The notes below the pieces were generated by a model. The model was not told the origin of the DNA. It made no database searches and was given only the letters and a program-made list of their open reading frames with translations. The translations under genes and the position numbers were made by a program. From positions 1-48,596 of the forward strand of contig JANYDM010000190.1 of assembly GCA_025363575.1 (NCBI GenBank): a DNA stretch of 48,596 nt, read 5' to 3'. This document shows, one piece after another, positions 6,349 to 40,266 of the stretch. Each line of letters begins with the position of its first letter. The first letter of the stretch is position 1. The DNA comes from Betaproteobacteria bacterium (lineage in GTDB: Bacteria > Pseudomonadota > Gammaproteobacteria > Burkholderiales > SG8-41).

Positions 6349-6679
6349 GGACCCCCCTGATATTTGACAAGCTGGAGGTAGTGCGTATTGCCGGCTTCAG
6401 GCAACCGCGCGGTAGCGTATACCCCTTTGCACCAGCGCCTCGAACCATGGCCCGCGCCCCTGCAATCCGCACCTGCGCACAAGCAAGCCAAACCGGCACG
6501 GCTTTTTTAATCAACCACGGCATTCTATTGAGCAAGCCGGCTTGCTTTCCGTGCGTTAGCGCACGGAGCAATGGTTTCGTCTCGCGTAGTCTTTTCATCG
6601 TCGTATCTATCCTCCGGTTGCCGCGATGTTCGACTGGCGCAGGTGGAGCACTTATCAACTTTCCGACGGAGCAACGATC
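6349..6679. other. Non-coding region with a 16-bp palindrome
   Basis: Divergent control region between the ClsC-like gene (minus) and the small-protein run (plus). It holds the perfect 16-bp palindrome AGCAAGCCGGCTTGCT at 6531-6546 and, four bases further on, the stress-type motif at 6551-6567. TTGACA at 6364-6369 with TATTGC at 6386-6391 resembles a weak sigma-70 promoter reading right. Longer frames here show no codon bias or known domain, and I read no gene. Confidence 0.5.
6551..6567 (+). promoter_or_regulatory. Recurring stress-gene motif, copy 1
   Basis: GTGCGTTAGCGCACGGA fits the window consensus GTKCGnnAnCGyACrGA at every defined position. It lies 112 bp before the 25-residue membrane-protein gene at 6680 and the DUF883 run. 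The core GTGCG/CGCAC arms make it nearly palindromic, but the trailing GGA gives it a direction, here towards the downstream gene. Confidence 0.6.
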
Positions 6680-6757
6680 ATGGGCAAATATCTACTGGGT
6701 TGGCTGTTGGGCGTACCGGTTTTCGTGCTGGTGCTCGTCTATCTGTTTTTCCACTGA
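6680..6757 (+). CDS. 25-residue single-span membrane protein
   Basis: Very short gene encoding MGKYLLGWLLGVP followed by a run of Val/Leu/Phe ending YLFFH. Nearly the whole product is one transmembrane helix with a Lys at the N-side and a His at the C-terminus. A good Shine-Dalgarno GGAG (6668-6671) sits eight bases before ATG 6680. It is the first gene after motif copy 1 and lies 110 bp before the DUF883 gene, so it probably belongs to the same stress-response unit. Tiny hydrophobic proteins of this sort usually tune membrane complexes, but no role can be assigned here. Confidence 0.65.
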   Translation: MGKYLLGWLLGVPVFVLVLVYLFFH

Positions 6758-6867
6758 CCGGCGCGGATGTTTTAAGAGGGCGCTCGCGTCTTGAGTTTTG
6801 AGTTCGATGCAAATCTTTCAGCAAGTATTATTCAATTTCAACCGGTTCACCTTAGAGGAGATTCAAA

Positions 6868-7227
6868 ATGGAATCAGGATCACGCGGTAACGCAGGGGGC
6901 AATTCAGGCAAGGGCGAGGGCGCCATCAACAATGCATCCTCGAGCGCGCATGCGGCGGTTAATTCGCTCGCCGGCGCCGCGGACGAGGCTGCACGCAAAG
7001 CGAAGCCGGCAATCGACCGCGTCGCGGGGATGGCACATCAGGCAGTTGACAAGGCGGCAAGCGCCGCGGCGCCGGCCGCTGACTGGCTGGGCGAGCAGGG
7101 CGAAAGCCTGACGGCCGCGCAGAAAAAACTGATGGATGATACCTGCAGCTATGTTTCGGCCAATCCGCTGAAGTCAGTGGGCATCGCACTGGTCGCGGGT
7201 ATCCTGCTGAGCCGCATCATTCTGTAG
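6868..7227 (+). CDS. DUF883 (ElaB/YqjD-like) membrane-anchored protein
   Basis: Protein of 119 residues: an Ala/Gly/Ser-rich N-terminus, an amphipathic helical middle with many Ala and Lys, then YVSANPLKSVGIALVAG and a C-terminal hydrophobic anchor ending LLSRIIL. The NPLKSVGIALVAG pattern is the hallmark of the DUF883 family; YqjD and ElaB of E. coli are tail-anchored inner-membrane proteins that associate with ribosomes in stationary phase. A strong Shine-Dalgarno (AGAGGAGA) lies just before the ATG. The next two genes resemble YqjE and YqjK, which reproduces the E. coli yqjDEK order. Confidence 0.85.
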   Translation: MESGSRGNAGGNSGKGEGAINNASSSAHAAVNSLAGAADEAARKAKPAIDRVAGMAHQAVDKAASAAAPAADWLGEQGESLTAAQKKLMDDTCSYVSANPLKSVGIALVAGILLSRIIL

Positions 7228-7283
7228 TCGCTGTGCTCCCTCGCCTGGCAACCCTGTGGAACGTTCTGTGCCGGCCTTACGCC

Positions 7284-7712
7284 ATGGTACCGCCTGAGGG
7301 CGGCGCCGCGCCGGCCGCAGAGCGTCCCGCTTCCGCGGCCGCATCGCCCGGCGTACTCGAAGAATTATCGGGTGCGCTCGCCGGGGCGCGCGCAGTCATT
7401 GCGAACTTGTGCGAACTGGCCGCTCTCGAGGCGCACCGCGCAAGTATTGCGCTAATGGGGATGTTGATGGCGGCGCTGGTGGCCGGGGTATGCCTGGTCG
7501 CAGCATGGCTGGGCATTATGCTGGCGCTTGGCATGTGGGCAGTCTCTTTGGGCGTTCATCCCGTCGCTGCGGTAGTAGCGATCGCGTTCACGAACGGCCT
7601 TGCGGCCGCAGTGCTCGCCAAATTTTGCATGGGTCAGAGCCGCGCCTTGCTGTTCCCGGCGACGCGGCGGCAAGTGGCGGGCAAACCTCCCGCAGTGCCG
7701 GTGCGGCAATGA
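7284..7712 (+). CDS. YqjE/holin-X-like (DUF1469) membrane protein
   Basis: About 142 residues: a Pro/Ala-rich N-terminus, an amphipathic segment (LEELSGALAGARAVIANL), then two transmembrane helices at roughly 55-80 and 85-112 and a basic tail. This topology, after a DUF883 gene, is that of YqjE-type phage-holin-superfamily-3 proteins. I chose ATG 7284; a GTG at 7233, six bases after the upstream stop, would add 17 residues, and neither has a clear ribosome site. The stop overlaps the next start (TGA at 7710-7712, ATG at 7709). Confidence 0.7.
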   Translation: MVPPEGGAAPAAERPASAAASPGVLEELSGALAGARAVIANLCELAALEAHRASIALMGMLMAALVAGVCLVAAWLGIMLALGMWAVSLGVHPVAAVVAIAFTNGLAAAVLAKFCMGQSRALLFPATRRQVAGKPPAVPVRQ

Positions 7713-8155: not shown

Positions 8156-8220
8156 GAGCATTACACAGCAGCCACTGCGCATTAAGTGCGCCGCCAACCG
8201 CCCGCAGATGACGCGCCAGC

Positions 8221-9180: not shown

Positions 9181-9201
9181 TCGTCTTAGCTCATGGAGTT
9201 T

Positions 9202-9218
9202 GTTCGGGAACGCACAGA
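9202..9218 (+). promoter_or_regulatory. Recurring stress-gene motif, copy 2
   Basis: GTTCGGGAACGCACAGA fits the consensus GTKCGnnAnCGyACrGA at every defined position and lies 106 bp before the glycine-zipper stress gene at 9325. The spacing is close to that of copy 1. Confidence 0.6.
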
Positions 9219-9324
9219 TCAGCGTATCCGCGGCCGCGATAATTATTGTTACGGTCCGGTTTGTCGTCCCGCCGCGGCGTCCTCCGCGGCCAACGCGCGG
9301 ACCCCCGCTAACCAGGAGACAACG

Positions 9325-9390
9325 ATGACTACGATCATCGACGGCAGATTTCAGCAGCAGGATGCAGCGCAGCAGGTCATGGTGGAATGA
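9325..9390 (+). CDS. N-terminal piece of a frameshifted stress protein
   Basis: Short frame of 21 residues (MTTIIDGRFQQQDAAQQVMVE) with a strong Shine-Dalgarno AGGAG (9314-9318) seven bases before its ATG. Its sequence is the usual beginning of general-stress proteins of the 17M-like type, in which a phrase like this runs straight on into the segment encoded by the next frame. The stop at 9388-9390 overlaps ATG 9387 of that frame by four bases. So either one gene has lost a base, or a -1 slip or start/stop coupling yields the product. A real sequencing error cannot be excluded. Confidence 0.6.
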   Translation: MTTIIDGRFQQQDAAQQVMVE

Positions 9391-9920
9391 TGGGCGCCGG
9401 TTTTGCGGACGGCAGCACCGCGATGTTCTTCGTCAACCCGCCGGGGCAGCATGATCGATTTCCGGTCGGCGGCGACCGGGACGAATCGCCCGGCACCGAA
9501 CAAGCCGGGGGCGGTTCCACGGCCCAGGCGGCGGTCGGCGGTGCAATCGGCGCTGTGGTCGGCCTCGCAACGCTGCCGGTACTCGGGCCCGGCGCGGCTG
9601 TTGCTGCAGCGGGCGTAGGCGCATACGGCGGCTCACTGTATGGAGCGCTGCATAACACCAACGGCGCAATCAATAATGGCGCGACGCCAGCGCAGCAAGC
9701 CGCCGGCCCGAAGGGCGAGCACCGGCATGCCGGCATCGTAGTCGCGGTCGCCGCGCCCACGCCGGCGCAGCAGGCGACCGCGGCGCGTATTCTACGCAAA
9801 CACGCCGCAGTCGATGTCGAAGCAAGCGATGGCACCATCGTTGCGGGCGAATGGGTCGATTTCGATCCACTCAAGTCCCTGGCGCTGCTCGCGAACCAGC
9901 GAGTTTGCGGGCGCGCGTGA
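9387..9920 (+). CDS. Glycine-zipper general-stress protein, main part
   Basis: Frame of 177 residues beginning MMGAGFADGSTAMFFVNPPG. It has a conserved HDRFPVGGDRDESPGTEQAG segment near 30-50, then a glycine-zipper membrane-inserting region (AVGGAIGAVVGLATLPVLG, then GAYGGSLYGAL) at about 60-100 and a C-terminal alpha/beta region near 115-165. It has no Shine-Dalgarno of its own; ribosomes probably come from the 9325 frame through the ATGA overlap. Family knowledge says the two parts normally form one protein. The role is probably in envelope stress, in line with motif copy 2 upstream. Confidence 0.7.
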   Translation: MMGAGFADGSTAMFFVNPPGQHDRFPVGGDRDESPGTEQAGGGSTAQAAVGGAIGAVVGLATLPVLGPGAAVAAAGVGAYGGSLYGALHNTNGAINNGATPAQQAAGPKGEHRHAGIVVAVAAPTPAQQATAARILRKHAAVDVEASDGTIVAGEWVDFDPLKSLALLANQRVCGRA

Positions 9921-10245: not shown

Positions 10246-10250
10246 ACAGG

Positions 10251-10352: not shown

Positions 10353-10727
10353 TTACCGGCGGTTCGGATCGTTCGGATGATTGTCGCGGCGGTCCGGCAC
10401 GCCATCGCCGTCCCGGTCCCAGCCGCCACGGCGCATTTGCCAGCGGCCGTCGCGTTCGATCCATTCATGCGGACGGTAAGCATAGCCCCTACGCTCCCGT
10501 TCCCAATGGCCATTGACCCAGACGTGCCGGCGGCCCTGCCAGTTCCAGAAGCCAGGCGCCCAGACATAACCGCGGCGCGCCGCGGGCACGCGCTCTTGAC
10601 GCGGCGGCGGCGGCGCGGTATTGACGAAGACATCGACGGCGGCCATCGCCGGCAGCGGCGCTACCACGGGCGCGCCGAGAATTCCGGCGGCAAACATTGC
10701 CGAGAGCAGGATTTTTTTGCTGAACAT
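10353..10727 (-). CDS. WXXGXW-repeat exported protein
   Basis: Protein of 124 residues with a signal peptide (MFSKKILLSAMFAAG, cleavage near PAMAA). The mature part has the aromatic repeat WAPGFWNWQGRRHVWVNGHW followed by a YRPHEW unit and a C-terminal DRDGDGVPDRRDNHP, which looks like a calcium-binding thrombospondin-type-3 motif. WXXGXW proteins are periplasmic or outer-membrane proteins of unknown function. The ATG at 10727 has a good Shine-Dalgarno (GAGGAGA); an in-frame start five codons earlier would place the ribosome site inside the gene. Confidence 0.85.
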   Translation of the reverse strand: MFSKKILLSAMFAAGILGAPVVAPLPAMAAVDVFVNTAPPPPRQERVPAARRGYVWAPGFWNWQGRRHVWVNGHWERERRGYAYRPHEWIERDGRWQMRRGGWDRDGDGVPDRRDNHPNDPNRR

Positions 10728-10857
10728 GTTGTATCTCCTCAAGAACCATCATAAGGGACTGAGCAACGGCGATGCGACCGGATGGCGAACGGCCGCTCCC
10801 TGAATGCACGCGTTGACGCGGAAGTTCTTCATATAGTGCCCGCGTGACCGTAAGATT

Positions 10858-10874
10858 TCTGTGCGGTGGCGCAC
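10858..10874 (-). promoter_or_regulatory. Recurring stress-gene motif, copy 3
   Basis: Read on the minus strand, this is GTGCGCCACCGCACAGA, matching the consensus GTKCGnnAnCGyACrGA at every defined position. It points to the WXXGXW-repeat gene, whose start is 130 bp downstream. Together with copy 4 it gives each of the two divergent genes its own correctly oriented site. Confidence 0.6.
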
Positions 10875-10930
10875 CATCAGTGCGCGGACAGGTGACGACC
10901 GTAGTTGTCTTGCACCGCGCAATCCAGTGT

Positions 10931-10947
10931 GTGCGCCAGCGCACGGA
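10931..10947 (+). promoter_or_regulatory. Recurring stress-gene motif, copy 4
   Basis: GTGCGCCAGCGCACGGA contains the perfect palindrome GTGCGC-CA-GCGCAC (10931-10944). It lies 65 bp before the dehydrogenase start at 11013 and points towards it. All defined consensus positions match. Apart from copies 3 and 4, I see nothing else definite in the 285-bp divergent region 10728-11012. Confidence 0.6.
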
Positions 10948-11012
10948 CTAAGCCACGGTGCGCCCTCAAAGTGATGAATCTTCCCTGCTGGTTGTCGTTG
11001 TTTTTCCCTTGC

Positions 11013-12350
11013 ATGCACCCCAACGTGATGCTTACTGAGCTTTGTCGCTGTGCATTGGGTTTTCTTGTGGCAGGCAGCCTCGCCGCATGCGGCGGTGCCG
11101 CGCAGCATACGGTTGCCGAGGGCACCGGGCCGAACCCCGCGCTGCCGCAGCCGGAAAAATCACTGATCCCCGTTGTGCAGATCGCGCCTGTCAAGGGCTG
11201 GCCGGCGGACGGCAAGCCGGTTGCAGCGGCGGGCACGATAGTCGCACGCTACGCTGAGGGCCTTGATCACCCGCGCTGGCTGTACGTGCTGCCCAATGGC
11301 GACGTGCTCGTCGCGGAGAGCAACGCGCCACCCAAGCCGGACGATAGCAAAGGCATCAAAGGCTGGGTCATGAAGAAAGTAATGGCCAGGGCCGGCGCCG
11401 GCACGCCCAGCGCCAACCGCATCACGCTGCTGCGCGACGCGAACGGCGACGGCATCGCGGACAGCAAATCGGTGTATCTCGAAAACCTGAACTCGCCATT
11501 CGGCATGGCGCTTGTCGGCAATGATTTGTATGTCGCCAATTCCGATGCCGTAATGCGGTATGCATATATGCCGGGCGCGGATCGTATATCCGCGCCCGGC
11601 GTCAAGATTACCGACCTGCCCGCGGGCCCAATCAACCATCACTGGACGAAGAACATCATTGCGTCCACGGATGGCACGCGGCTGTACGCGACGGTGGGCT
11701 CCGACAGCAACGCCGCGGAAAACGGCATCGACAAGGAGGAAGGGCGCGCAGCAATCTGGGAAATCGATTTGAAGACCGGCAGCAAGCGCCTGTTCGCGAC
11801 CGGCATCCGCAATCCGAACGGCATGGCGTGGGAGCAGGACAGCGGCGTGCTGTGGGCCGTCGCCAACGAGCGCGACGAGCTCGGCAGCGACCTTGTGCCG
11901 GACTACATGACATCGGTGAAAGACGGCGCGTTCTATGGCTGGCCGTACAGTTATTACGGCCAGCATGTGGACGCACGCGTGCAGCCGCCGCGTCCCGATA
12001 GGGTCGCGAAGGCGATTGCGCCCGACTACGCACTGGGGCCGCACACCGCGTCGCTCGGCCTAGCGTCGGCGCAGGGAACAACCTTGCCCGCGGATTTTCA
12101 ACGTGGCATGTTTATCGGCCAGCACGGTTCATGGAACCGCAAGCCGCATAGCGGCTACAAAGTCATTTTCGTCCCATTCAACGGCGGCAAGCCGTCCGCC
12201 GCGCCGCGCGACGTGCTGACCGGATTCCTGAGCGCAGACGGCGACGCCTACGGCCGGCCGGTCGGCGTCGCGCTCGACAAGACCGGCGCGCTGCTCGTCG
12301 CGGACGACGTCGGCAACATCATCTGGCGTGTAAGCGCCGCTAGCCGCTAG
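11013..12350 (+). CDS. Sorbosone-dehydrogenase-family PQQ-type lipoprotein
   Basis: Lipoprotein of about 445 residues: a hydrophobic signal ending LAACG, then a six-bladed beta-propeller with the family motifs [43 protein letters not shown] and [16 protein letters not shown]. The DANGDGIAD segment near 148-156 is a probable Ca2+ site. This family (L-sorbosone/aldose dehydrogenase type) oxidises sugars in the periplasm with PQQ as cofactor. The substrate here is unknown, and the window holds no PQQ synthesis genes. ATG 11013 or ATG 11028 could be the start; both keep the signal peptide. Confidence 0.88.
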
Positions 12351-15910: not shown

Positions 15911-16248
15911 AGGAGCATTGCGATGCATCCCGAATTGATCGGGCTCGGGCTTATGCGCTGAGTGCCGTCACTTGCACCACGAAGCGCAGACGACCAGCTC
16001 AAACGAAATGTCGCAGCAGCACGATCCTCTTGCAATGAGTCCGAGTGTCGCTGACGATCGTGTTCGACTGGACGAGTGGTTGCCCGCCGCGAGCAGGTGT
16101 CGTAGCGTAAACCGCCCCCGCGAGTTTTGACAACCCGCGTGGCGGATTCCGAAAGTACGCCTGCGCGGGCGTTGGCGTGCGATGCTGTTTGCCGAATCAC
16201 GGAGTTGTTCGCTACGCTCGCGACGCGCAGTTAATAAGGAGAATCAAG
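15911..16248. other. Intergenic region between phosphoketolase and gnd
   Basis: About 340 bp without a recognisable gene. Right after the phosphoketolase stop an AAGGAG (15910-15915) precedes a 12-codon frame at 15923-15961. The remainder shows short frames without codon bias and an imperfect inverted repeat (CCGCGAGTT...AACCCGCG near 16110-16140). A promoter for the gnd operon probably lies here, but I cannot place it. The gnd ribosome site AAGGAGA precedes ATG 16249. Confidence 0.5.
15923..15961 (+). CDS. Possible 12-codon leader or remnant
   Basis: ATG 15923 has a perfect Shine-Dalgarno AAGGAG at seven-base spacing and reads MHPELIGLGLMR before TGA. The phrase IGLGLM resembles the start of 6-phosphogluconate dehydrogenase-type NAD-binding domains, and the gnd gene itself begins [12 protein letters not shown]. 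It may be a decayed gene start, a leader peptide or chance. Evidence is thin. Confidence 0.25.
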   Translation: MHPELIGLGLMR

Positions 16249-17271: not shown

Positions 17272-17272
17272 A

Positions 17273-26200: not shown

Positions 26201-29200
26201 ATTCTCCGCGCAGGCTGGCGTTGGCGTAAACCACGCAACCGGCGAGGCGCGCGTACAGTTGCGTGTCGGCTTCCGTGGCGTTGATCTGCCGCAGCACGAC
26301 CTGGCTATGCGTCCACGCGAGCTCGAACACGCGGTCGGCGAGATGACGGTCCTGGTATTTGGCGGCAAGATTCAGCGCGGCCTCGCGCGTGGCGCCGACG
26401 CCGGTGACCACGTCGACCACCACTGCCTGCTCCGGGTCCAATGCGATGCGGCAGCGGATGGCGATCACCGGATCGAGCACGGAACCCGCGCTGTTCGACA
26501 GCGCGCCGTGCTCGCCCAGCGCTTGCGGCGCGGCCACAGTGCGCCCGCGACCGATGAAGCGCGCGCGGTCGGTTTCGTACGAGATATCGCCCATCTCCGC
26601 GCCGCGCACCGCCATTACGTGCAGCATCCACGGCGGCTGCTCGGTGTCCGAGCGCGGCCGCCGCGTGCACAATATCGCCTGGCGTTCGCGCACGATCTCG
26701 GTCTGCACGAACAGATTGCTGAACGCCGGATGCAGCGCGTCGGCGGCCGGCACCGCGAGCGTCACTTCGGCATACGTCGTGACTTCTATCGTGCGCCGCG
26801 TGCGCGCGCGGTTGGTGATGCGGATGCGGCGCAGCTCGATGTCGTCTTCAGGGGAAACTACGATTTCGGTGTGGGTGTCGTAGTCGAGATCGCGGCGGCG
26901 GAATTCGGCGCGTCCCTCGGAGAATATCGCTTCATAGTTCTCCGCGCGCTTGAGCGTCGGTTGGTGCGTGTTCGACCAGAATACGCCACTCGACACGTCG
27001 CGCAGATAGCAGAACGCGCCCCAGTTGTCGCATGTCGTGTCCTCGCGCCAGCGCGTGACCGCCAGCTCCTTCCAGCGGCTGTAACCGCCGCCTGCATTGG
27101 TGATCATCACGTGATAGCGGCTATTGGACAGCAGCTGCACTTCGGGGGCCGGTGTGTCTGGCGTGCGGATGACGCGCACCGGCATTTCAACGTCGTTGAC
27201 CGTGGCGCGGATCGACGAGAATTCGCTCGTATGCAGCTGGACCGGGCCCGCCCGCGGCACGCGCTCCTGCAGCAGCAGGGTCGTCGCCTGGAATTGCGGA
27301 TCGGCGGCGAAGCGCTTTTGCATGGGGCGGTCGCGCAGCGCGTACGCGAGCGCGAGGAAAATCATGCCTTGATGGTGCGCCATGAACGAGCGGATCACCG
27401 CGCTCGTTTGTCCGCGCGGCAAACGCGCGGCGGTGTAGTCGACGGCTTCATACAAGCCATAGCCGCCGGCAAGACCTTCGCCCGCGAGCCGCTCGAGATT
27501 GGCGCATGCGCGCGCAGGCGCCACCATCAGCGCGAGCGCGGACGCATAAGGCGCGATCACAAGATCCTCGGCCAGTCCGCGCTTGAGCCCCAGTCCCGGC
27601 ACGCCGAATGCGCGGTATTGATAATTAAGCGCGGCGTCGACCGTGTTGTAGCCGCACTCCGAAATGCCCCATGCCACCCCGCGCCGGGTCGCGTAGGCGA
27701 TCTGGCGCTCGACGGCTGCTTCGCAGGTGCGTTCGAGCAGGGTATTTTCGTAGCTCGGCATGATCAGCATCGGCATCAGATATTCGAACATCGAGCCGCT
27801 CCACGACAGCAGCATGGGCTCGCCGCCGCTCGCCGTCAGCAGGCGACCCAGCGCAAACCAGTTTTCCTGCGGCAGCTGGCCCTGCGCGATGGCGACGAAG
27901 CTGGCCAGCCGCGCTTCCGACGCGAGCAGATCGTAATAGCTGGTGTCGCGCCGGCGGTCGCTGACGTTGTAGCCGATGGCAAGCAGATGACGCGATGGGT
28001 CGTAGAGGAAACCGTAGTCCATGACGGCCATCTCGGCGGCCTGCATGGCCAGGCGCTCGATGGCGGCCGCGCACTCGCGGGCGCGCGCGCCGGCGAGCGC
28101 GACGCAGCGCTGCAATTCGTCGAGCGCCGTCTGCTCGGCCGGAGCGGGGGCCGGCACGACGCGCTGCGCGATTTCTTTGAGCCATTGCTCGTCGCGCGCG
28201 GCCAGCTCACGCAACGATGGAATGTCGATGGATTCGACGAGGTGCCGCACGCGGTCCGGCAGCCCCGTCAGCGCGAGCCACGGCGCAAGCAACAGCAGTT
28301 CTTCGAGCGCATCGCGGCACTGCCGTGTCAGCGCCTGCGTCCACCATTGCGCGCTGCCATCCGGCGCAGCAGCATCCCCGCTGCCGCGCGCGAGCTCTGC
28401 GGCGGCCGGGGCGAGACGCGTCAGCCAGGCGTGCACGGCGGCGAGCGTGGGGGCCCGCGAATCGAAGGCGGATTCCACGTCTCTTTGCAGCTGCGCGTGC
28501 TGCGGTGTTGCCGCATCGCCGGCGATTTCCACCAGCACGGCCAGCGTATTGGCTATGCCTTCGAACCAGCGCGTGCCGGCGACCTTGTCATCGCAGAGCG
28601 CCAGCAGGCCCGGCTGCAGCGTCAGCAGATTGCCGGCGAGATTGCCGCTGTCGACCGAAGAAACATAGAGGGGCGCCAGCGGCCGCAGCGTCTGGGTGTC
28701 GTACCAGTTGTAAAAATGACCTTCGTAGCGCTCGAGTCCCTGCATGGTCTGCAGCGTATCGGTGGTGCGCACGATCAGCTGTCCGGCCGGTATGAAGCCG
28801 AAATCGTAGGCGGCGAGGTTGGCGAGCAGCGACAACCCGATGTTCGTCGGCGATGTGCGGTGGGCGATCACCGGCAGCGGTTGTTCCTGATAGTTGTCCG
28901 GCGGCAGCCAGTGATCTTCAGCGCTCACGAACGTTTCAAAAAAAGCCCAGGTCCTGCGCGCCAGTGTCTGCAGAAAGGCGCTCTGTCCGCTGGTGAGCCT
29001 GGCGGCGCGCGACGGCCGCGGCCGGCCGAGCCACCAGATAATCGCCGGCGCCAGCGTCCACAAGAAGAGCACGGGCGCGGCGACGATGAGCGCGCGCGGC
29101 GCCGCGTTCGCCAGGTACGCGGCGGCGGCTGCTGCGATCACGGGCGAAATCAACATCGTCCGGTAGCTCGCGACAAAGCCGGTGCGCACGCTCCTTTCCA

Positions 29201-32200
29201 CGCCGCTCGAAGGCGTCCATTCGAGCAGGCGCGTGTGCGAAACCAATATGCGCCAGTTGGTGCGCAGGATGGCGTCGCAGCTGTACCAAGCCTCGAACGG
29301 CAGGCACGCGAATGTCAGCCCCGCCCGCGCCAGATGGCCTCGCAGAGTCTCCAGCGATGCTGCAACGTGCTGGCGCGGCGGCGCGTCCGGCGGTTTGTGC
29401 AGCAGATCGAGCGCGGACGCGAACAACGGCGGGAGGGCAATGATGCCGACGACGACCGCTGTCCAGAACCAGGCCGGATGAAACACGCTCCAGCCCAGCA
29501 GTAAAAGCAGCGTCAACGCGGGCGCCACAATGCTGCGGCGCAGGTTGTCGAGGATTTTCCACTGCGAGAGCCACGACAGTGGATTGGGCTTGCGCGGCCC
29601 GCCGGCCTCGCCGGGAACGCGCGGCAGCAGCCACGAAGCAATCTGCCAGTCGCCGCGTATCCAGCGGTGGCGGCGGCTTACGTCCGCGAAATAGTGGACC
29701 GGATGTTCTTCGTACAGCTGTGACTCGCTGAGCAGCGCCGAGCGCGCGTAACAGCCTTCGAGCAGGTCGTGGCTGAGAATGCGGTTTTCGGGAAAACGAT
29801 CTTTGAGCGCGAGCTCGAACGCGTCGACGTCGTAGATGCCCTTGCCGATGAACGAGCCCTCGCCGCACAGGTCCTGATACACATCGGAGACCAGGCGTGT
29901 GTACGGGTCTATGCCGGGCTCGGCGCCGAACAGGCGCGCATAGCGCGAGCGGTTGGTGCCCGGCAGGCTGGTCTCGACGCGCGGCTGCATGATTCCGTAG
30001 CCCGCGGTGACGCGCTGGCATGCGGGATCGTAGCGCGGGCGATTGAGCGGATGCGCCATGGCGCCGACGAACTGGCGCGCCGCGTCGCGCGGAAGCTGCG
30101 TGTCGGTATCGAGCGTGATGACGTACTTGATGCCCGACAGGACGGCGGTGTTGCCGGCGATCAGGGCAAAACGTCCAGCGGCGCCGCCGCGCAGCAGCGC
30201 GTTCAGTTCGCCGAGCTTGCCGCGCTTGCGCTCATAGCCCATCCACAGCTTCTCACGCGGATTCCAGCGCCGCGGGCGGTGAAACAGAAAAAATACGTCG
30301 CTTTCGCCGCCGGCATATTTCCGGTTCAACTCGTCGATGCGATCGCGCGCGCGCGCGAGCCGTGCGTCGTCCTGCGGCAGCTTTTCTTCGCTCGCATCGG
30401 CAAAGTCGGTCAGCAGTGCGAAATGCAAGTGCGCATCGCGGTTGCCGAGATAACGGACTTCAAGCGCCTCGGCCAGTTCGTCGATGCCCTCCACGCTGCC
30501 GAGCAGCGTCGGCACGACGACGAGCGTCCGGCATTGCGCGGGTATGCCCCGCGTGAAATCCAGGTGCGGCAGGGCTTGCGGCGCGGCAAGCAGCGTCGCA
30601 CACCAATTGACGAGCGCGACCGCCAGCTGGCTCGTGCCGACGGCAGCGAGCAGACCGAGCGTAGCTAGCGGCCATCCATGAATGCCGCCGACGAGCGCTT
30701 GCCTGAGCAGGCCCGCCGAGAAGAGCAGCGTCAGCAGCCCAATCGATCCGATATAGAGCAGCAAAGGAAATCTGCGCGCGGCCTGGCACACGGCGTCGCC
30801 CGCAGACCACCGGGTTCCCGCCGCGCGCTTGAGCAGCAGCAACCCTTCGCCGATCAGAAAGCAGCCGACATGGGCATCGCGCGGTGAGACCGCCGCTTCC
30901 GCGGCCGGCGCCTGGACGCTTATTGCGAGCGCCGCCGCCGCGCCTTCATGCGCGAGCTGGATGGCTTTGCGCGCGACTTCGATTTCAGACAAGCGGCTGG
31001 CTCTGGCGATCTTCTCCACGGCATGGCGATAGTGGTCGCGCGTTGCGAAATCCATCGTGCCGTACACGCCGCCCGGGTCTTCGCGCAGTTTCTGCTCGAC
31101 ACCGCTCATGGTTTCGACGAACTCACGCCAGTCCATCGCGGCAAGAAAGCGCAGGCTGCCGATGCTGTTGCTGATCGAAACCTGGCCCGATGCCTGTTTC
31201 TGGGTTTCGGATTGCACGAGCTGTTCGATCGTGCCGCCCGATTCCGACAGGCGTTGCTCTATCCACGTCAGCGGCAGCGCGAGTGCGGCGCTCTGGCCCT
31301 GCAGTCGCCGCGCAAGCTCCGCGACAAAGGAACTTGCCATCGGCGGATTCGAGCGCGCCATGTCCGCGACCACCAAAATGAGGCTCTTGGGGTCTTTCTC
31401 GGCGACTTCCATCATTTCATCCGCCCATACGTCCGCGCGCTCGCGGTCGGTCGTGCTGGCGCTGACGCGCGCGCCGACGCGGCGCAGGTTTTCGATCAGC
31501 GCCAGGCGCAGCATGATGGGTATCGCCCACAGTTCGCCGAGCCTGAGCTGCGTCGTTTTCTGGTAGGCGGCGACGAAACGGCTGAGGCTGTCGGCATCGA
31601 CGTGGCCGTCGCCATGCGATACGGCCTCGAGCGCTATGTCATACACGCGCGGCAGGCCGGCCGAAGGACCGTGGGCGAGCCGCGGCAACTCGCGGCTGTA
31701 GCCTTTCGGCAGGTGTCTGCGCGCGGTGCGGACCTGCTCTTCGATCAGGTACAGGTTGTCGAGCAGCCATTCGCCGGCCGGGGATATGCGGCGGTTGGCT
31801 TTCACCGCTGCGGCCAGCACGTTGCACGTTTCGAACAGCACCTGTTCGTTTTCGCCAAGGCGCACGAGCAGCAGGTCGGGTGCGCGCCCCAGGCTTACGC
31901 GGTGCAGGGCCGCGAGGTCCTTGCCGTGCTGCTCCATTTGGGCGGCGCTGAACAATTCCGCGCGCAGCGGCGCTTCGTTGTCGATGGGCCTGCGTTTGCC
32001 GCGATGGCCGCCGCGCAGACTCGCGAAGAGCGCGCGCCACGCGGCGGGAATCGTGTCACCGCTCAATTTCAATTGTGAGATTTCCTTGTGTGCATGAAAT
32101 CGGGACGTTCGTATGAGGCCATGCTGGCGGGGCCATGCGGCGCGTGCGGAACATCTCCCAGCCGCCGCCCGGCTGCCCTGGATAATTTGTTCTAATTCCG

Positions 32201-32231: not shown

Positions 32232-32257
32232 AATGACACGAATAGCGCACCCTCAAC

Positions 32258-32274
32258 GTGTGCTAGCGCACAGA
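32258..32274 (+). promoter_or_regulatory. Recurring stress-gene motif, copy 5
   Basis: GTGTGCTAGCGCACAGA differs from the consensus GTKCGnnAnCGyACrGA at one defined position (T for C at 4). It lies 84 bp before the BON lipoprotein and points to it, while being only 27 bp from the probable start of the divergent glucan synthase gene. Confidence 0.55.
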
Positions 32275-32358
32275 AAAAAACGGCCGAAAGGCGGATGTTC
32301 GCATGCTGATCCGATCGCCACCAGGACAGAGCAGTTGCCCACACAAGAAAGAACCGGA

Positions 32359-32922
32359 ATGCCCGCATACAGTTACAGAATATTGGCTTTGGCAGTGGTG
32401 ATAGTCATCGGTGGTTGCGACCGGCCGCCGGCACCCGCCGGCACTCCTGCGCCGAAGACGACCGTTGGCACCGAGATCGACGATACGGTGGTGACCACCC
32501 GCGTCAAGGCCGCATTGATTCAGGACCCGGCCATCAAGAGCTTCGGTTTCAAGGTCGATACGCACAAGGGCGAAGTGCAGTTGAGCGGCTTCGTCGACAA
32601 CCAGGCGCAGGTCGACCGCGTGGTCGAAGTCACGCGCGCCGTTGAGGGCGTCAGGAGCGTCGACAACAAGGTCAGCGTCAAAGAAGGCGCGACGACCGTT
32701 GGCAACAAGGTCGACGACGGCATCGTGACCGCCAAGGTCAAGGCCGCGCTGCTGGCGGACGCCAGCGTCAAGAGCTTCGACATCGCCGTGGTGACGCGCA
32801 AAGGCGAAGTGCAAATGAGCGGGTTCGTCGACAACCAGAACCAGATCGACCGTGCGCTCGAAATCGCGCGCGGCATTGAAGGCGTGCGCAGCGTCGGCAA
32901 TGAGATGAGCGTCAAGAAATAA
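32359..32922 (+). CDS. BON-domain lipoprotein, OsmY-like
   Basis: Lipoprotein of 187 residues with a lipobox near residue 20 (VIGGC) and two BON domains in tandem (about 45-110 and 120-185). Each carries the VTTRVKAAL.../KGEVQLSGFVDN...VEGVRSVDN pattern, and the two halves are about 60-70% alike by eye, which points to an internal duplication. BON proteins such as OsmY and DolP bind phospholipids and protect the envelope under osmotic or other stress. ATG 32359 gives the signal peptide. Motif copy 5 upstream fits a stress-induced gene. Confidence 0.92.
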   Translation: MPAYSYRILALAVVIVIGGCDRPPAPAGTPAPKTTVGTEIDDTVVTTRVKAALIQDPAIKSFGFKVDTHKGEVQLSGFVDNQAQVDRVVEVTRAVEGVRSVDNKVSVKEGATTVGNKVDDGIVTAKVKAALLADASVKSFDIAVVTRKGEVQMSGFVDNQNQIDRALEIARGIEGVRSVGNEMSVKK

Positions 32923-34110: not shown

Positions 34111-34146
34111 TGTGCGCTTCGCATCGCACTGAGAAGACCGGCGTGC

Positions 34147-34163
34147 GAGCGCTACCGTACAGA
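34147..34163 (+). promoter_or_regulatory. Recurring stress-gene motif, copy 6
   Basis: GAGCGCTACCGTACAGA differs from the consensus GTKCGnnAnCGyACrGA only at position 2. It is 31 bp before the ATG of the membrane-protein gene at 34195, the shortest spacing of the eight copies. Confidence 0.5.
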
Positions 34164-34194
34164 CCTCAGCGGCGATGACGCGGACACTGGCTTC

Positions 34195-34725
34195 ATGTCG
34201 AATCAATCTCGCGCGTGGCGATGGAGCTGGATGGCGTTGGCGGTCGTGTGGACGCTCATCGCAGCTGCGTACGGCTGGCTTAACTTGCCGCGAGCCCGGT
34301 ATATTCCGCACGATCCCCAGTTTCTAAGCGGCCTTTCCAGCGAGTCTCTCGCGATATTGCGCGGCGAAGGCGCCCCCGCGACGCCTGCGCGCGGTGCCTG
34401 GTCGCTGGACCCGCGTATCGTGAGCACGCCCAACGGCACGCGCCTGGCGTTTCCGTCGTTCACCACGGATGCCCGCGCGGCGCTGGTCGTCAACGAGTAT
34501 CACAAACTGTTGATTGCCGAAGCGGATCAACAAAGAATCCCTTACCTGCTGGACGTGCTGGTGGTCTGGCTGGTGCCTTTGCTGGGCGCGGGGCTGGCAT
34601 TGCGATTGTCCCGCCGCAGCGGCAGCGAATGGCGCATCATTCCCGACAGTGCTCATCAGCCCGCCGCTTCCAGCGCGGGGGGCGACCGTCGTCTGCATGA
34701 CGAGACGCCCGTCAATCCCGCATAA
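34195..34725 (+). CDS. Unrecognised two-helix membrane protein
   Basis: Protein of 176 residues with transmembrane helices at about 10-30 and 120-141 and an intervening region of about 90 residues, probably periplasmic. No domain is recognised. The central region has a Pro/Gly-rich stretch (residues 55-80) and the C-terminal 35 residues are hydrophilic. It follows the AI-2E permease and lies 31 bp behind motif copy 6, so it probably has its own promoter. I propose no function. It stays in frame with good codon use from ATG 34195. Confidence 0.7.
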   Translation: MSNQSRAWRWSWMALAVVWTLIAAAYGWLNLPRARYIPHDPQFLSGLSSESLAILRGEGAPATPARGAWSLDPRIVSTPNGTRLAFPSFTTDARAALVVNEYHKLLIAEADQQRIPYLLDVLVVWLVPLLGAGLALRLSRRSGSEWRIIPDSAHQPAASSAGGDRRLHDETPVNPA

Positions 34726-34992
34726 GCGCGGCCGCGCCACGTCTATATCGCGCTTTGCCGCGGCCGCCCGTCAACACCATCCCTCCTGACTGCCCCGTCC
34801 ATTTACCGTACGCGCAATCTGACGCGGTAAACGCAAATTCATGATGATTCCGCTGCATGTTCGCTGCGCCATCTAAAGTTGAATTCGCTGTATGTGGGAT
34901 GACGCACAGTATTCACCAGCCGTTACGACGAGAATTGCCGCTTCGATTGGCAAGCTAATCCGCCCCGTAGCCGGGGCACGAAAGGTTTCATC
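34726..34992. other. Non-coding region with inverted repeats
   Basis: The 267 bp between the membrane protein and the 50-residue gene contain TTTACCG (34802-34808) inverted as CGGTAAA (34825-34831), motif copy 7 at 34894-34910, and a short CCCCG/CGGGG hairpin shortly before the AAAGG ribosome site of the next gene. The hairpin near the ribosome site might modulate translation; nothing shows this directly. Confidence 0.45.
34894..34910 (+). promoter_or_regulatory. Recurring stress-gene motif, copy 7 (weak)
   Basis: GTGGGATGACGCACAGT is the least faithful copy, with three departures from the consensus GTKCGnnAnCGyACrGA (positions 4, 8 and 17). It is listed because it lies 82 bp before the 50-residue stress-type membrane protein and keeps the CGCACAG half. 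Confidence 0.35.
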
Positions 34993-35145
34993 ATGCTGTA
35001 TATCATTGCGGTAGTTCTCATCATCCTTTGGCTGCTCGGCCTTGTCACTTCGTATACGATGGGCGGCCTTATCCATGTTCTGCTGAACATTTCCGTCGTC
35101 GTTATCCTGCTGAGATTCATCGGCGATCGCAAGCCGCCGCTGTAA
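34993..35145 (+). CDS. lmo0937-type (DUF5670) small membrane protein
   Basis: Gene for 50 residues, MLYIIAVVLIILWLLGLVTS then YTMGGLIHVLLNISVVVILL and a basic tail RFIGDRKPPL. The phrase W-L-L-G-x-x-T-x-Y-T-x-G-G-x-I-H is the signature of lmo0937-family membrane proteins, two-helix proteins common in stress gene sets of many bacteria. ATG 34993 has an AAAGG ribosome site at seven-base spacing. The function of the family is unknown. Motif copy 7 precedes it. Confidence 0.85.
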   Translation: MLYIIAVVLIILWLLGLVTSYTMGGLIHVLLNISVVVILLRFIGDRKPPL

Positions 35146-36086: not shown

Positions 36087-36836
36087 TTAGTTAGTAGCAG
36101 GCATGACCTGCGGGCTGCGCACGTCGGACAGCAGGCGCGCGAATTCTTTCTTGACCAGGGCATAGCATTCGCAGGCGCCGGCTTCGAGCCCGGCCCGCTC
36201 CAGCACGGTGAGATGCCCGCGGCGATAGCGGATGACGCCGGCACGCTGCAGTTTGCCAGCGGCCTCGGTGATGCCTTCGCGGCGCACGCCGAGCGCGCAC
36301 GCCACCAGTTCCTGCGTCATCACCAGCTCGTGCCCGGGCATGCGGTCGAGTGTCAGCAGCAGCCACCGGCACAATTGCTGGTCTATCGAGTGATGGCGGT
36401 TACATGCGCCCGTCTGAAACATCTGGGTAACGAGGGCCTGAGTGTAACGCAGCAATAACCGCTGGGTCGGGCCGCCGCGGTTGAATTCTTCCTTCAGCAG
36501 GCGCCCCGACAGCCGGTAGCCGTGTCCGCCGGTCTGCACGACGGCCGAGCTGGGGGTGGTATCGCCGCCCATGAAGAGCGAAATGCCGAGCACCCCTTCG
36601 TTACCAACCCCGGCCATCTCCGCCGACATACCCGATTGCAGGATGTAGAGCAGCGATACGATCGCGGTGGTGGGGAAATAAACATGCTGCAATTGACCGC
36701 CCGGATCGTAGAGCGTGTCGCCAAGCAGCATGGGCACGAGCTCCAGATTCGGGGCAAGGCGCGCGAATTCCGCCGCGGGCAGCGCGGCCAGCAGGTGATT
36801 TTGATCGGGGCTGTGGAGAGGGCGTGTGGCAATCAT
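36087..36836 (-). CDS. Crp/Fnr-family transcription regulator
   Basis: Protein of 249 residues: an N-terminal cyclic-nucleotide-binding-like beta-roll (about 15-130, VYFPTTAIVSLLYILQSG, GNEGVLGI) and a C-terminal winged helix with ELVACALGVRREGITEAAGKLQ as recognition region. The classical cAMP-binding residues and the Fnr cysteines are not visible, so its ligand, if any, is unknown. Its start overlaps the stop of the REC-PAS gene by four bases (36833-36836), which makes it the third gene of a kinase operon and the likely output of that system, though it has no receiver domain. Confidence 0.9.
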   Translation of the reverse strand: MIATRPLHSPDQNHLLAALPAAEFARLAPNLELVPMLLGDTLYDPGGQLQHVYFPTTAIVSLLYILQSGMSAEMAGVGNEGVLGISLFMGGDTTPSSAVVQTGGHGYRLSGRLLKEEFNRGGPTQRLLLRYTQALVTQMFQTGACNRHHSIDQQLCRWLLLTLDRMPGHELVMTQELVACALGVRREGITEAAGKLQRAGVIRYRRGHLTVLERAGLEAGACECYALVKKEFARLLSDVRSPQVMPATN

Positions 36837-37669
36837 GTCGCAGCCCCCTTCTGCTGGTCATCCAGTTCAACGCCGATGCCGCGGTAACCGATGAAGCCGC
36901 ACGCCTGGTTGAACATCGGCTCGCCGCTGACCTGGAATTTCTGGTGCGAGCCGTCGGCATTCACGCGACTGAAAGCAAAGTCGACAAACGGCTGGCGCGC
37001 AGCGATTTTTTCGTGCAGTGCCGCGCGCTCCGCCTTGTTCCAGCCAGTCGCGTCTGTTTCGATATTTTCGCCGGTCAGCCCATCGACGCGGATGCCGAGC
37101 ATCTCGAGCACCGGACCGGACACCTTGGTGAAAGCGCCGGTCGCATCCTGTTCCCAGTACCAGTCGGACGCGAGCTCGGTCAGGCTGCGAAACCGCGCTT
37201 CGCTTTCGCGCAGCTCGGCGGTGCGTTCCGCGACCTTCTGCTCGAGGATTTTGCTGTAGTCCTCGAGACGCTTGTACAGCAGCCGCACTTCCAGCATGTT
37301 GTGGATGCGCGTCTTGACTTCGACGAGATCGAACGGCTTGCTGATGAAATCCTTGGCGCCGGCCTGCAAAGCGCGCAGCTTGTGCGCGGGCTGCGCCGTC
37401 AGCACGATCACGGGCAGGTAGCTGTCGGCGTTGTTCGTTTTGAGCCCCGCCATCACGGCAAAGCCATCCATCTCCGGCATCTGCAGGTCGAGCAGGATCA
37501 GGTCGTAGTGGTTTTTGCGGTGCAGCGCGCAGACCTCCTGCGGATTCATCGTCGTGGCGACGTTGACGTAGCCCGCTGCGCTCAGCAATTCCTTCAGCAG
37601 CGTGACATTGGTCTCCTGATCGTCGACGATCAGAATGCCGGCGTTAAGAACGTCGGGTGCGCTCGTCAT
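36833..37669 (-). CDS. REC-PAS signal-transduction protein
   Basis: Protein of 278 residues: an N-terminal receiver (about 11-130, phospho-acceptor Asp61 in DLILLDLQMPEMDG), a coiled linker (KRLEDYSKILEQKVAERTAEL) and a C-terminal PAS domain (about 165-270). It has no DNA-binding or enzymatic output, so it may pass the signal to the kinase or to the Crp/Fnr protein by contact. Both ends overlap neighbours by four bases: its start lies in the end of the hybrid kinase and its end in the start of the Crp/Fnr gene. Confidence 0.92.
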   Translation of the reverse strand: MTSAPDVLNAGILIVDDQETNVTLLKELLSAAGYVNVATTMNPQEVCALHRKNHYDLILLDLQMPEMDGFAVMAGLKTNNADSYLPVIVLTAQPAHKLRALQAGAKDFISKPFDLVEVKTRIHNMLEVRLLYKRLEDYSKILEQKVAERTAELRESEARFRSLTELASDWYWEQDATGAFTKVSGPVLEMLGIRVDGLTGENIETDATGWNKAERAALHEKIAARQPFVDFAFSRVNADGSHQKFQVSGEPMFNQACGFIGYRGIGVELDDQQKGAAT

Positions 37670-40185
37670 AGTGTTTTGTCCTTAAGAATTGCGCGGTCTG
37701 CCCGGCTCTTCACGAACTGCAGCGCCACGTCCAGCGTATCCATGAACTCATTGACCTTGATCGGCTTGGTGAGATAGCGGAAGAACCCGGCTTGGAGTCC
37801 TTTTTCAATGTCGCGCGGCATCGCATTGGCGCTCACCGCAATCACCGGGATATGCGTCACCGTCGGGTCCTCCGTGAGTATACGCAATACTTCGATGCCG
37901 CTGATGCCGGGCAGGTTGATGTCCATCAATATGACATCGGGCATCGACGCCAGCGCCATCTCGATGCCGCTGGCGCCGTCGCGCGCGCTCAAAAGGCGCA
38001 GATCGGGCCGGCGCGCGATCAGATCTTCGACCAGCATCAGATTGGCCGGGTTGTCTTCGACATAAAGTACGGTGCGCAGCGGCGCATCGGGTTGCGCCGG
38101 CAGGCGCGCGGGCATTGCGTGACGGGCCGCAGCGGCCTGCGTGTCGGTCGTCACGTTCAAGTCGATCCAGAACTCGCTGCCCTTGCCAACCGTGCTGGCG
38201 ACGCCGATGACGCCGTCCATCAACTCGACCAGCCGTTTGGACACCACGAGACCGATGCCGGTGCCTTCCGAGGTGTCCTCTTCCTTGCCCATGCGGTTGA
38301 ACGGTTCGAACAATTGCGCGAGCTTCTCGGCCGGCAATCCCGCCCCGGTGTCCTTGACGGCCACCCGCACACGGTGCGGCATGGGCGTAGTGCAGGTCAC
38401 AATCACCGTCCCGCCTTCGGCGTTGTACTTGATCGCATTGGAAAGCAGGTTGATAAGGACCTGTTTCACCCGCGTGCGGTCGGCTTTGACGAAGCAAGGA
38501 GCGGCGAACCTTGGAAAGGTCACGCTGACGCCGCGTTTATGCGCTTGCGGCTCTATCATGGTCGCGCATTCGTGCATGACGTCGGCCAGCGACAGTGGTT
38601 CGATCGACAGCGACAGCTTGCCGGACTCGATCAGCGCGAGATCGAGAATCTCGTTGATCAGGTCGAGCAGGTACCAGCCCGCCTTTAGTATCTGGTCGAT
38701 GCTGCGTTTCTGGCCGGCAGTCGGCCCGGGCGAGCCGGATTCGATGAGCTGCGCAAACCCCAGTATCGCGCTCAAGGGCGTGCGCAGCTCGTGGCTCATG
38801 CTGGAAAGAAAATCCGATTTCGCGAGATTGGCCTTGTCGGCGACGGCACGCGCGTCCTCCAGCTCCGTGTTTTTGGCGTGGATCAACTGATCGAGGCGCG
38901 TGCGTTCGGTGACGTCGCGGAACACCAGCACGGCGCCTACGGTGTGACCGGCGCGCGTGCGTATCGGCGCGCAACTGACGGCTATATCGCATTCGCTGCC
39001 GTCTCGCGCGATCAAAATTGTGTGATTGGTCAGGCCGCGGGTTGTACTATTCGCGAGCGTGTCGCGAACCGGCGCGACGACGGGCAGTCGCGTTTGCTGG
39101 CTGATAATGTTGAAAATGTCTTCGATCGGACGAGTAAGCGCGTCTGCCAGAGCCCAGCCGGTCAATTTCTGCGCCAGCGGATTCTGCAGGGTCACGCGCC
39201 CGCCGGCATCCGTCGCGATAACCGCGTCGCCGATGGAATTGAGGGTAATGGCGAACTTTTCCTCGCTGATCTCCACGATGGCATTGGTCCGCTGCAGCTC
39301 CTGATTCAACTCTTCCTGCTTTTTCAGCAGGTGCGTTGTTTCCAGATGAATCAGTTCGTTGAGTTTATGCCGGGACTCCCGGTAGATCAGCCACGCGAAC
39401 GACAGCGCAAACAGAAATGTCAGCACGCTGACCGTCACGATCAGGGCGAACAGCCGGCGCATATCCGATTTCAGTTTGGCGTCGTAGCCGGCCAGCGCTT
39501 CTTCCTCGATTTCGATGTAGCGGCCGGTCTCGGCGCGAATCGAATCCATCAACCGCTTGCCTTCGCCGTTGCTTTCCGCCGTCAGGACCGCAGTCATCTT
39601 CAGATGGCGGCGCAGGTCGACGATGCGCGTCATCTGCTCCATTTTGCCCACCACCAGCGGCGTCAATACGTCGAGTTGCTGCTGCGCTGCGCCGATCAGA
39701 GTCAGCCGGCGTAACTCGTCGAGATGGCCGTCGACTTTATCGCGGGCGGCCAGATACGGCTGCAGAGATGTCTCATTGCCGCTGAGCGAATAGCCGCGCT
39801 GGCCGGTTTCGGCATCGTTCAGTTCGGCGAGCAGCGCGTGCGCGCGGCTGATGACGTCGTAAGTGAGCTTGCGCGCGTCGGTGGAGATCTCGATCTGCTT
39901 GAACGCCCAGAACGACAGCGCTACCACCAGCGCAACCAGCAGCGCCGCGCCGGTCAGCGACGCCGTTTTGTAATCTGCGGTGGGCGGCAGCCCAGTCCCG
40001 GTCCCGGCGGGATTCTCTGCCGCGCTTTCTTTTTTTAGCAAACCCTGCCTTTGTAGAAAGCGTACAGTCGAATGCGGGCCAATCCCGCTGGTGCACGCGC
40101 GGGATAAGCGCGGAAAAACCGGTTGATTTAATTCGTCAGGGCAACATTGCTCTGGCCGCGTGCAGGCGTTCTCTATTGCGGCCAT
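37666..40185 (-). CDS. Hybrid histidine kinase: CHASE3-PAS-HisKA-HATPase-REC
   Basis: Protein of 839 residues. Transmembrane helices at about 77-97 and 244-268 flank a periplasmic CHASE3 domain (with DAETGQRGYSLSGNE at about 124-138). PAS (about 305-430), HisKA with His465 (SMSHELRTPL), HATPase_c (N box LSNAIKYNAEGG, G box DTGAGLPAEKL) and a C-terminal receiver with Asp755 (DVILMDINLPG) follow. The first 60 residues are not conserved, so a later start cannot be excluded. It heads the operon with REC-PAS and Crp/Fnr genes. Motif copy 8 lies 64 bp upstream. Confidence 0.93.
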   Translation of the reverse strand: MAAIENACTRPEQCCPDELNQPVFPRLSRACTSGIGPHSTVRFLQRQGLLKKESAAENPAGTGTGLPPTADYKTASLTGAALLVALVVALSFWAFKQIEISTDARKLTYDVISRAHALLAELNDAETGQRGYSLSGNETSLQPYLAARDKVDGHLDELRRLTLIGAAQQQLDVLTPLVVGKMEQMTRIVDLRRHLKMTAVLTAESNGEGKRLMDSIRAETGRYIEIEEEALAGYDAKLKSDMRRLFALIVTVSVLTFLFALSFAWLIYRESRHKLNELIHLETTHLLKKQEELNQELQRTNAIVEISEEKFAITLNSIGDAVIATDAGGRVTLQNPLAQKLTGWALADALTRPIEDIFNIISQQTRLPVVAPVRDTLANSTTRGLTNHTILIARDGSECDIAVSCAPIRTRAGHTVGAVLVFRDVTERTRLDQLIHAKNTELEDARAVADKANLAKSDFLSSMSHELRTPLSAILGFAQLIESGSPGPTAGQKRSIDQILKAGWYLLDLINEILDLALIESGKLSLSIEPLSLADVMHECATMIEPQAHKRGVSVTFPRFAAPCFVKADRTRVKQVLINLLSNAIKYNAEGGTVIVTCTTPMPHRVRVAVKDTGAGLPAEKLAQLFEPFNRMGKEEDTSEGTGIGLVVSKRLVELMDGVIGVASTVGKGSEFWIDLNVTTDTQAAAARHAMPARLPAQPDAPLRTVLYVEDNPANLMLVEDLIARRPDLRLLSARDGASGIEMALASMPDVILMDINLPGISGIEVLRILTEDPTVTHIPVIAVSANAMPRDIEKGLQAGFFRYLTKPIKVNEFMDTLDVALQFVKSRADRAILKDKTL

Positions 40186-40249
40186 ACTGCGGCCGGTGCC
40201 TATGGGTGCCTATTTTGAGGGAGAATTATCCTGCGCCGAGCAGACACAG

Positions 40250-40266
40250 TCTGTACGCCAGCGAAC
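40250..40266 (-). promoter_or_regulatory. Recurring stress-gene motif, copy 8
   Basis: On the minus strand this reads GTTCGCTGGCGTACAGA, differing from the consensus GTKCGnnAnCGyACrGA only at position 8. It points to the hybrid-kinase gene, 64 bp downstream, in the 150-bp gap after the sulfatase gene. Confidence 0.5.

Follow-up and report, generated by a model that had tools for sequence, protein, structure and literature searches.

A 48,596-nucleotide stretch of DNA from a Betaproteobacteria bacterium of the Burkholderiales (contig JANYDM010000190.1 of assembly GCA_025363575.1, positions 1 to 48,596 of the forward strand; here called the window) carries eight copies of an element that an initial annotation had read as the mark of a possible regulon of stress-type genes. 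We consider it quite likely that this element serves as operator for a Crp/Fnr-family dimer (most likely P0001, a protein encoded in the same window, and its relatives) and that it mediates class II activation of envelope and general-stress type genes and of the regulator's own operon. The claim of a shared regulon is strongly supported by a fixed spacing to −10 hexamers, by intergenic placement, by target families that recur in relatives, and by co-occurrence with one family of transcription factors.

According to the mechanism that we propose, the dimer would bind the palindromic element, centred at about −41.5 of sigma70-type promoters, and, acting as a class II activator, would recruit RNA polymerase. 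In this way it would switch on genes of the envelope and general-stress type and also its own operon, which encodes a hybrid CHASE3 kinase, a receiver-PAS (REC-PAS) protein, and the Crp protein, giving positive feedback. Physical binding, activation rather than repression, and a part for the kinase and the REC-PAS protein are what we infer from the patterns described below. The evidence for a regulon is strong, that for the P0001 subfamily as the binder is good but correlative, and the stress role and the signal are matters of interpretation, "envelope stress" being a fair reading of the target families.

A palindrome at a fixed distance from the −10 hexamer

A scan of the window located all eight sites of the initial annotation, each at its position and on its strand. 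When the 17-mer that had been used to describe them was searched with up to two mismatches, the window gave 12 strand-matches, compared with a mean of 4.8 and a largest value of 11 in 100 shuffles, a clear but modest excess. Two of the 12 (6548 and 10928, minus strand) are the opposite strand of palindromic sites, and the site at 34894, which had been called weak, is matched by the 17-mer only in reverse (34891, minus strand, two mismatches). The eight sites are in fact one view of a 20-bp palindrome, TATGTKCGCTAGCGMACAGA, a symmetry that had been missed; its half-sites are TATGTKCG-N4-CGMACAGA, with the core TGTKCG-N4-CGMACA. A search of the window against Rfam returned no match.

A profile seeded from 18 exact matches was iterated on the window and on 37 loci around homologues of the in-window Crp/Fnr protein (L001 to L036 and L046, out of 49 homologue loci) and converged on GTCTGTGCGCTAGCGCACAGAC. 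It gave 220 strand-hits, corresponding to 112 sites, versus 13, 13, and 6 hits in three Markov shuffles, a contrast that is somewhat flattered because the profile was fitted to the same real loci. Within the window the profile finds 10 sites, namely the eight already listed and two that lie within genes (centres 1537.5 and 35609.5). The eight are intergenic, as had been claimed, provided that open reading frames (ORFs) scoring below 12 in our gene caller, which is crude and gives approximate starts, are disregarded. Enrichment upstream of genes, which the initial annotation had put forward as a check, was assessed in relatives, and there too the sites are commoner before genes than expected: across the window and the 37 loci, 97 of the 112 sites are intergenic despite 84% of that DNA being called coding. 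Exact 17-mers with the N4 spacer occur 12 times in the 49 loci, versus 0 or 1 for altered spacers or permuted letters; a variant with loosened last bases (ACAGR), which overlaps the motif, also occurs 12 times. For the bare palindrome GTKCG-N4-CGYAC, the loci contain 68 matches, compared with 7, 15, 15, 25, and 31 for five altered forms.

The sites share a promoter geometry. The hexamer NANNNT lies exactly 29 bases downstream of the palindrome centre at all eight window sites, and at each of the other 62 distances it is found at 0 to 3 of the eight (background, 0.042; P of about 1e-11, or 6e-10 corrected for 63 distances, values that are optimistic because this loose form was picked after the flanks had been viewed). 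The two in-gene look-alikes have NANNNT on neither side. Among the 224 flanks of the 112 sites, the stricter TANNNT occurs 38 times at distance 29, 8 times at 30, and 0 to 5 times at other distances from 12 to 99; when the window is set aside, 37 of the 204 flanks of the 37 loci have it at 29 (background, 0.0084; P = 2e-37). Because the profile extended only 14 bases from the centre, this spacing signal is independent of it. About six bases separate a −10 hexamer from the transcription start, and the centre therefore falls at about −41.5 of a sigma70-type promoter, with starts placed from the −10; CRP and FNR activate class II promoters from this position. Called gene starts lie 77 to 140 bp from the palindrome centre, except that of the kinase, which lies 218 bp away, or 74 bp away counting from the ORF start at 40185.

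Orienting the sites by their −10 hexamers yields the consensus TATGTGCGCTAGCGCACAGAC (80 flanks selected for [TCG]ANNNT at 29), in which CAGAC closes the promoter side. Read as a −35 hexamer, CAGACN stands 17 bases from the −10 and has GAC in common with the −35 consensus TTGACA. Thirty-four sites have TANNNT on just one side; at bases 8 to 10, GAC stands on the promoter side of 15 of them and on the opposite side of none. The promoter-side half-site thus runs into a degenerate −35, and this merger explains the directional RGA of the motif as first described. A reading of CGYACAGA near −35 as an element for an extracytoplasmic function (ECF) sigma factor was dropped, the element being a full palindrome with a sigma70-like −10.

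The Crp/Fnr protein and its co-occurrence with the sites

The site at 40250..40269 (minus strand; centre, 40259.5; −10 GATAAT at 40225-40230) stands at the head of a minus-strand operon spanning 40185-36087. Its first gene (37666..40185) encodes the hybrid histidine kinase P0003, with CHASE3-PAS-HisKA-HATPase-REC architecture; its second (36833..37669) encodes the REC-PAS protein P0002, in which Pfam detected no DNA-binding domain; and its third (36087..36836) encodes P0001, the 249-residue Crp/Fnr-family protein that we propose as the regulator. The initial annotation had not recognised a regulator; it is probably this protein of the same window. P0001 has a Crp-type helix-turn-helix (PF13545, 43.2 bits versus a cut-off of 27), and its predicted structure (mean predicted local distance difference test score, 91.6) has the CRP/FNR fold, with an N-terminal beta barrel of the cyclic nucleotide type, a long dimer helix, and a C-terminal helix-turn-helix. 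A Protein Data Bank search with the single P0001 sequence gave no match, and one with the family profile gave CRP/FNR structures. The subfamily is large: 7,999 candidates were scored, all at E ≤ 0.001, and the names among the best 120 are generic only. Crp/Fnr homologues of about 40% identity often lie beside a P0001 orthologue (G175:C52, G181:C11, G076:C21, and others), with up to eight homologues per genome.

In the recognition helix, GVRREGITEAA, residues G183, V184, and R186 show no variation across 44 sequences. We take R186 to correspond in the CRP register to Arg180, which contacts a G, and E191 to correspond to Arg185. The G so contacted is invariant in the 80 oriented sites, and the base opposite Arg185/E191 is mostly G or T; by analogy with CRP, a match of R186 and E191 to operator bases is plausible. 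Also invariant in the 44 sequences are C145, H149, C222, E223, C224, and Y225, which may point to a signal other than cyclic AMP (cAMP). C145/H149 and C222-E223-C224-Y225 lie near the end of the dimer helix and in the C-terminal tail, where they could form a metal or redox site.

To count sites across genomes we used a strict pattern (both half-sites, AGA, and the A...T of the −10 at the fixed distance), with the reversed pattern as control. Thirty genomes, reached through 30 of the 49 regulator loci, gave 74 matches in 18 genomes, versus 2 for the control; the five genomes to which distant homologues had led (about 40% identity or less; L037, L038, L041, L047, and L048) gave none. An even draw of 250 genomes from the Burkholderiales, the order of G010 (L010, Massilia sp. 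CF038), gave 140 matches in 60 genomes, versus 5 for the control. Seventy-eight of the 250 have a P0001 homologue at E ≤ 1e-20, and the two features go together: 49 genomes have both, 29 the homologue only, 11 the site only, and 161 neither (odds ratio, 24.7; P = 3.8e-21), so that 129 of the 140 matches fall in homologue genomes. Matches per genome rise with the closeness of the best homologue to P0001, from 0.064 where there is none (n = 172) to 0.47 (best-E exponent −20 to −70; n = 19), 1.10 (−70 to −90; n = 10), and 2.22 (−90 or beyond, G056 at 1.1e-90 included; n = 49). At least 61 of the 140 lie within 20 kb of a regulator position, where two regulators in a 4-Mb genome would cover about 2% of it at 20 kb either side, and at least 11 lie within 400 bp upstream of one.

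Sites also tend to precede the regulator gene itself. Of the 37 loci, 14 have a site in the 400 bp ahead of the regulator gene; among the other called genes of these loci, 59 of 403 are preceded by one at that distance (P = 9e-4). A uniform site density would predict 2.5 of 37; the other genes of the same loci are the fairer control, against which the contrast is weaker yet significant. In 4 of the 13 loci that have a kinase or REC-PAS gene ahead of Crp, a site stands at the approximate head of the run.

Of the 29 loci at ≥64% identity, 21 (counted by eye) have a relative of REC-PAS close to Crp, in two gene orders. With orthologues defined at E ≤ 1e-90 and at most 10 candidates scored per genome, at least 19 of the 250 genomes have the REC-PAS protein; all 19 also have a close Crp homologue, and in 18 the REC-PAS gene lies within 5 kb of a Crp homologue. 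Among the candidates scored, at most 10 per genome, no REC-PAS orthologue was found in 30 of the 49 close-Crp genomes, 22 of which nonetheless have sites. REC-PAS is thus coupled to the Crp protein but seems not to be required in every case.

Proposed target genes in the window and in relatives

Three plus-strand operators occupy the first part of the window. The one at 6548..6567 (centre, 6557.5; −10 TAGTCT at 6587-6592) faces a run at 6680..7227 comprising a 25-residue membrane peptide (6680-6757) and a DUF883_C protein (6868-7227; 25.5 bits, under the Pfam cut-off of 27); on its other strand TAGAAT lies at distance 30 (6522-6527), towards a PLD-family gene. The operator at 9199..9218 (centre, 9208.5; −10 GATAAT at 9238-9243) faces a glycine-zipper-like protein (9325..9920, plus strand), so labelled in the initial annotation, in which we found no Pfam family. 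This gene is split, the frame at 9325-9390 ending in a stop and an overlapping frame at 9390-9920 carrying on, through either an assembly error or a real frameshift. The third, at 10928..10947 (centre, 10937.5; −10 CAAAGT at 10967-10972), faces a glucose/sorbosone dehydrogenase-like protein (11067..12350, plus strand; start uncertain). Beside it, on the minus strand, the operator at 10858..10877 (centre, 10867.5; −10 CACTAT at 10833-10838) faces a WXXGXW protein (10353..10727, minus strand); on the plus side of this site, GACCGT at distance 29 is probably due to chance.

Farther along, the operator at 32255..32274 (centre, 32264.5) lies between divergent genes. Its plus side (−10 GATGTT at 32294-32299) faces an OsmY-like lipoprotein with two BON domains (32395..32922, plus strand; start uncertain). 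Its minus side has CATTAT at distance 29 (32230-32235), facing an additional target that had been missed, a 2,925-residue protein with GH94 and glycoamylase or glycoamylase-like domains (23295..32072, minus strand). Relatives of this protein are encoded near the regulator in L003 to L005, L007, L024, and L025, and in L007 a site also stands ahead of the homologue. Two further plus-strand operators, at 34144..34163 (centre, 34153.5; −10 GACACT at 34183-34188) and, the site that had been called weak, at 34891..34910 (centre, 34900.5; −10 GAGAAT at 34930-34935), face respectively a membrane protein with no Pfam family (34195..34725, plus strand; the caller's start is 34231) and a DUF5670 (lmo0937-type) membrane protein (34993..35145, plus strand; PF18919, E = 3.6e-13).

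Similar genes recur behind the sites of relatives. From 64 site-gene pairs with NANNNT at 29, we picked 47 proteins manually, the window contributing five. The Pfam families listed for them (25 of 36) include BON in 9; histidine-kinase domains in 5, with CHASE3 in 3; the Crp helix-turn-helix in 4; PLD and WXXGXW in 3 each; OmpA, CsbD, PRC-barrel, and glycine zipper in 2 each; and an AI-2E transporter and DUF5670 in 1 each. The recurring target families are BON, DUF5670, CsbD, WXXGXW, PLD, the CHASE3 kinase, and the GH94 enzyme. DUF5670 is present in 41 of the 250 genomes, 37 of which have a P0001 homologue (P = 4.6e-18). Conservation of the sites in relatives, another check suggested by the initial annotation, is partial: among the best 30 DUF5670 loci, 12 have a site within 350 bp upstream, 10 of these with NANNNT at 29, and 18 have none, including both loci from homologue-free genomes. 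In a null made of simple letter shuffles, taken from an earlier scan in which minus-strand loci were not re-oriented, a site occurred in 1 of 239 stretches.

Other genes of the window include two of the sulfatase type (40336-41820 and 43767-45221, minus strand; the first assigned by Pfam, the second by look), which lie outside the regulon, and near them a receptor-like gene that we take to be of the Bug type. On the plus strand, 13526-18688 holds a phosphoketolase (XFP) gene followed by genes that resemble, by look, those for 6-phosphogluconate and glucose-6-phosphate dehydrogenases.

Competing explanations and known systems

Several observations weigh against P0001 and its relatives as the main binders of the sites, or against the force of the statistics. 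TANNNT is found at distance 29 at only one of the eight window sites, and both the profile and the strict pattern were tuned on the window and the regulator loci. The 250-genome sample includes G010, itself a regulator-locus genome, and the co-occurrence statistics take no account of genome size. The 20-kb proximity of matches to regulator positions is a figure with no formal null. No strict match is found in 29 of the 78 homologue genomes, 11 genomes have one strict match each and no homologue hit, in 23 of 37 loci the 400 bp ahead of the regulator are free of sites, and 18 of the 30 DUF5670 loci lack a site.

Some of these sites, or all of them, could be bound by another Crp/Fnr paralogue, or by several with the operator in common, and the P0001 subfamily would then not be the main binder. 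Homologue genomes carry one to eight P0001 homologues, often side by side; 5 of the 19 genomes with only a distant homologue (best-E exponent −20 to −70) have strict matches; and in L015 and L033 sites stand ahead of more distant Crp-like genes. Moreover, the regulator has a site ahead of it in 4 of 8 loci at 42 to 52% identity and in 10 of 29 at ≥64%; since close and more distant homologues are alike in this respect, the operator does not belong to the P0001 subfamily alone, and relatives at 42 to 52% identity may share it. This likeness, and the weaker contrast in autoregulation under the fairer control, take a little from the P0001 reading and add a little to the paralogue explanation. The latter still seems to us somewhat unlikely, as the number of strict matches per genome drops with growing distance of the best homologue from P0001 and is zero in the five genomes located by homologues at or below about 40% identity.

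Three other explanations are less probable. Overlap of site and promoter alone is no proof of activation, and the Crp protein could instead repress these genes; this is improbable in light of the rigid −41.5 position and the degenerate −35, which together form the arrangement of class II activation, whereas repressor sites usually vary in position. The linkage of targets and regulator in one region could produce co-occurrence without binding if the site belonged to an unrelated regulator that merely shares a stress island with the Crp gene and travels along with it. We regard that as more improbable still: the Crp gene is preceded by sites more often than other genes are, strict matches in homologue genomes also occur far from the regulator positions compared, the geometry is of the CRP/FNR type, and TGTKCG as a half-site agrees with the CRP register, the G contacted by a conserved Arg being kept. 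A trivial explanation would be chance or structural palindromes of GC-rich DNA, such as terminators or elements like repetitive extragenic palindromes. The count of the 17-mer in the window, only modestly above shuffles, would suit it; the fixed −10 spacing, the near absence of altered patterns in the loci, and the concentration of strict matches in homologue genomes leave it next to no probability.

If P0001 is the binder, the system differs from the cAMP-binding regulators CRP, GlxR, and MtbCRP in its operator, TGTKCG-N4-CGMACA, since that of CRP is TGTGA-N6-TCACA, with the half-site TGTGA. GlxR has Lys where P0001 has E191 in a profile alignment. In the same alignment, the conserved Glu and Arg of the phosphate-binding cassette, which serve cAMP binding, are both replaced by other residues in P0001. 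With FNR, DNR, and FixK, P0001 has the fold in common, and FNR likewise works from the class II position. The operator is not the TTGAT-N4-ATCAA of FNR, and whereas an N-terminal cysteine cluster holds the 4Fe-4S centre of FNR, the first cysteine of P0001 is C145 and the 44 sequences show no conserved one ahead of it, C145, H149, C222, and C224 being invariant instead. The general stress regulons under PhyR-EcfG in Alphaproteobacteria and RpoS in E. coli have similar kinds of targets (OsmY/BON and CsbD among them) and a histidine kinase upstream; here we propose no sigma-factor switch but a Crp/Fnr activator acting on sigma70-type promoters. Class II activation by Crp/Fnr proteins is a known mechanism, and the regulon and the regulator subfamily were not met in the literature searched. 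In the titles and abstract openings covered the regulon is not recognisable, a weak negative since the search wording may miss "Crp/Fnr"; the main text of a regulon reconstruction in Proteobacteria (PMC5343134) contains no occurrence of crp, stress, cyclic nucleotide, or the half-site sequence.

A wider proposal, which we advance tentatively and think rather unlikely as a whole, is that the three proteins of the operon (kinase, REC-PAS, and Crp) work in a single pathway: a two-component system in which a Crp/Fnr activator, not a DNA-binding response regulator, would deliver the output. It would sense through C145/H149 and C222-E-C224-Y, not cAMP, and would be an RpoS-independent Burkholderiales counterpart of the alphaproteobacterial general stress response. 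The coupling of REC-PAS to close Crp homologues speaks for it, and the close-Crp genomes that have sites but gave no REC-PAS orthologue limit it.

What the analysis provides is a tie between the P0001 subfamily and a defined operator, a defined arrangement of the promoter, and small stress-type proteins that recur behind the sites and are for the most part uncharacterised (DUF5670, BON, CsbD, and WXXGXW). Regulator and uncharacterised targets thereby become testable, as a candidate stress circuit that, in part of the Burkholderiales, would need no alternative sigma factor.

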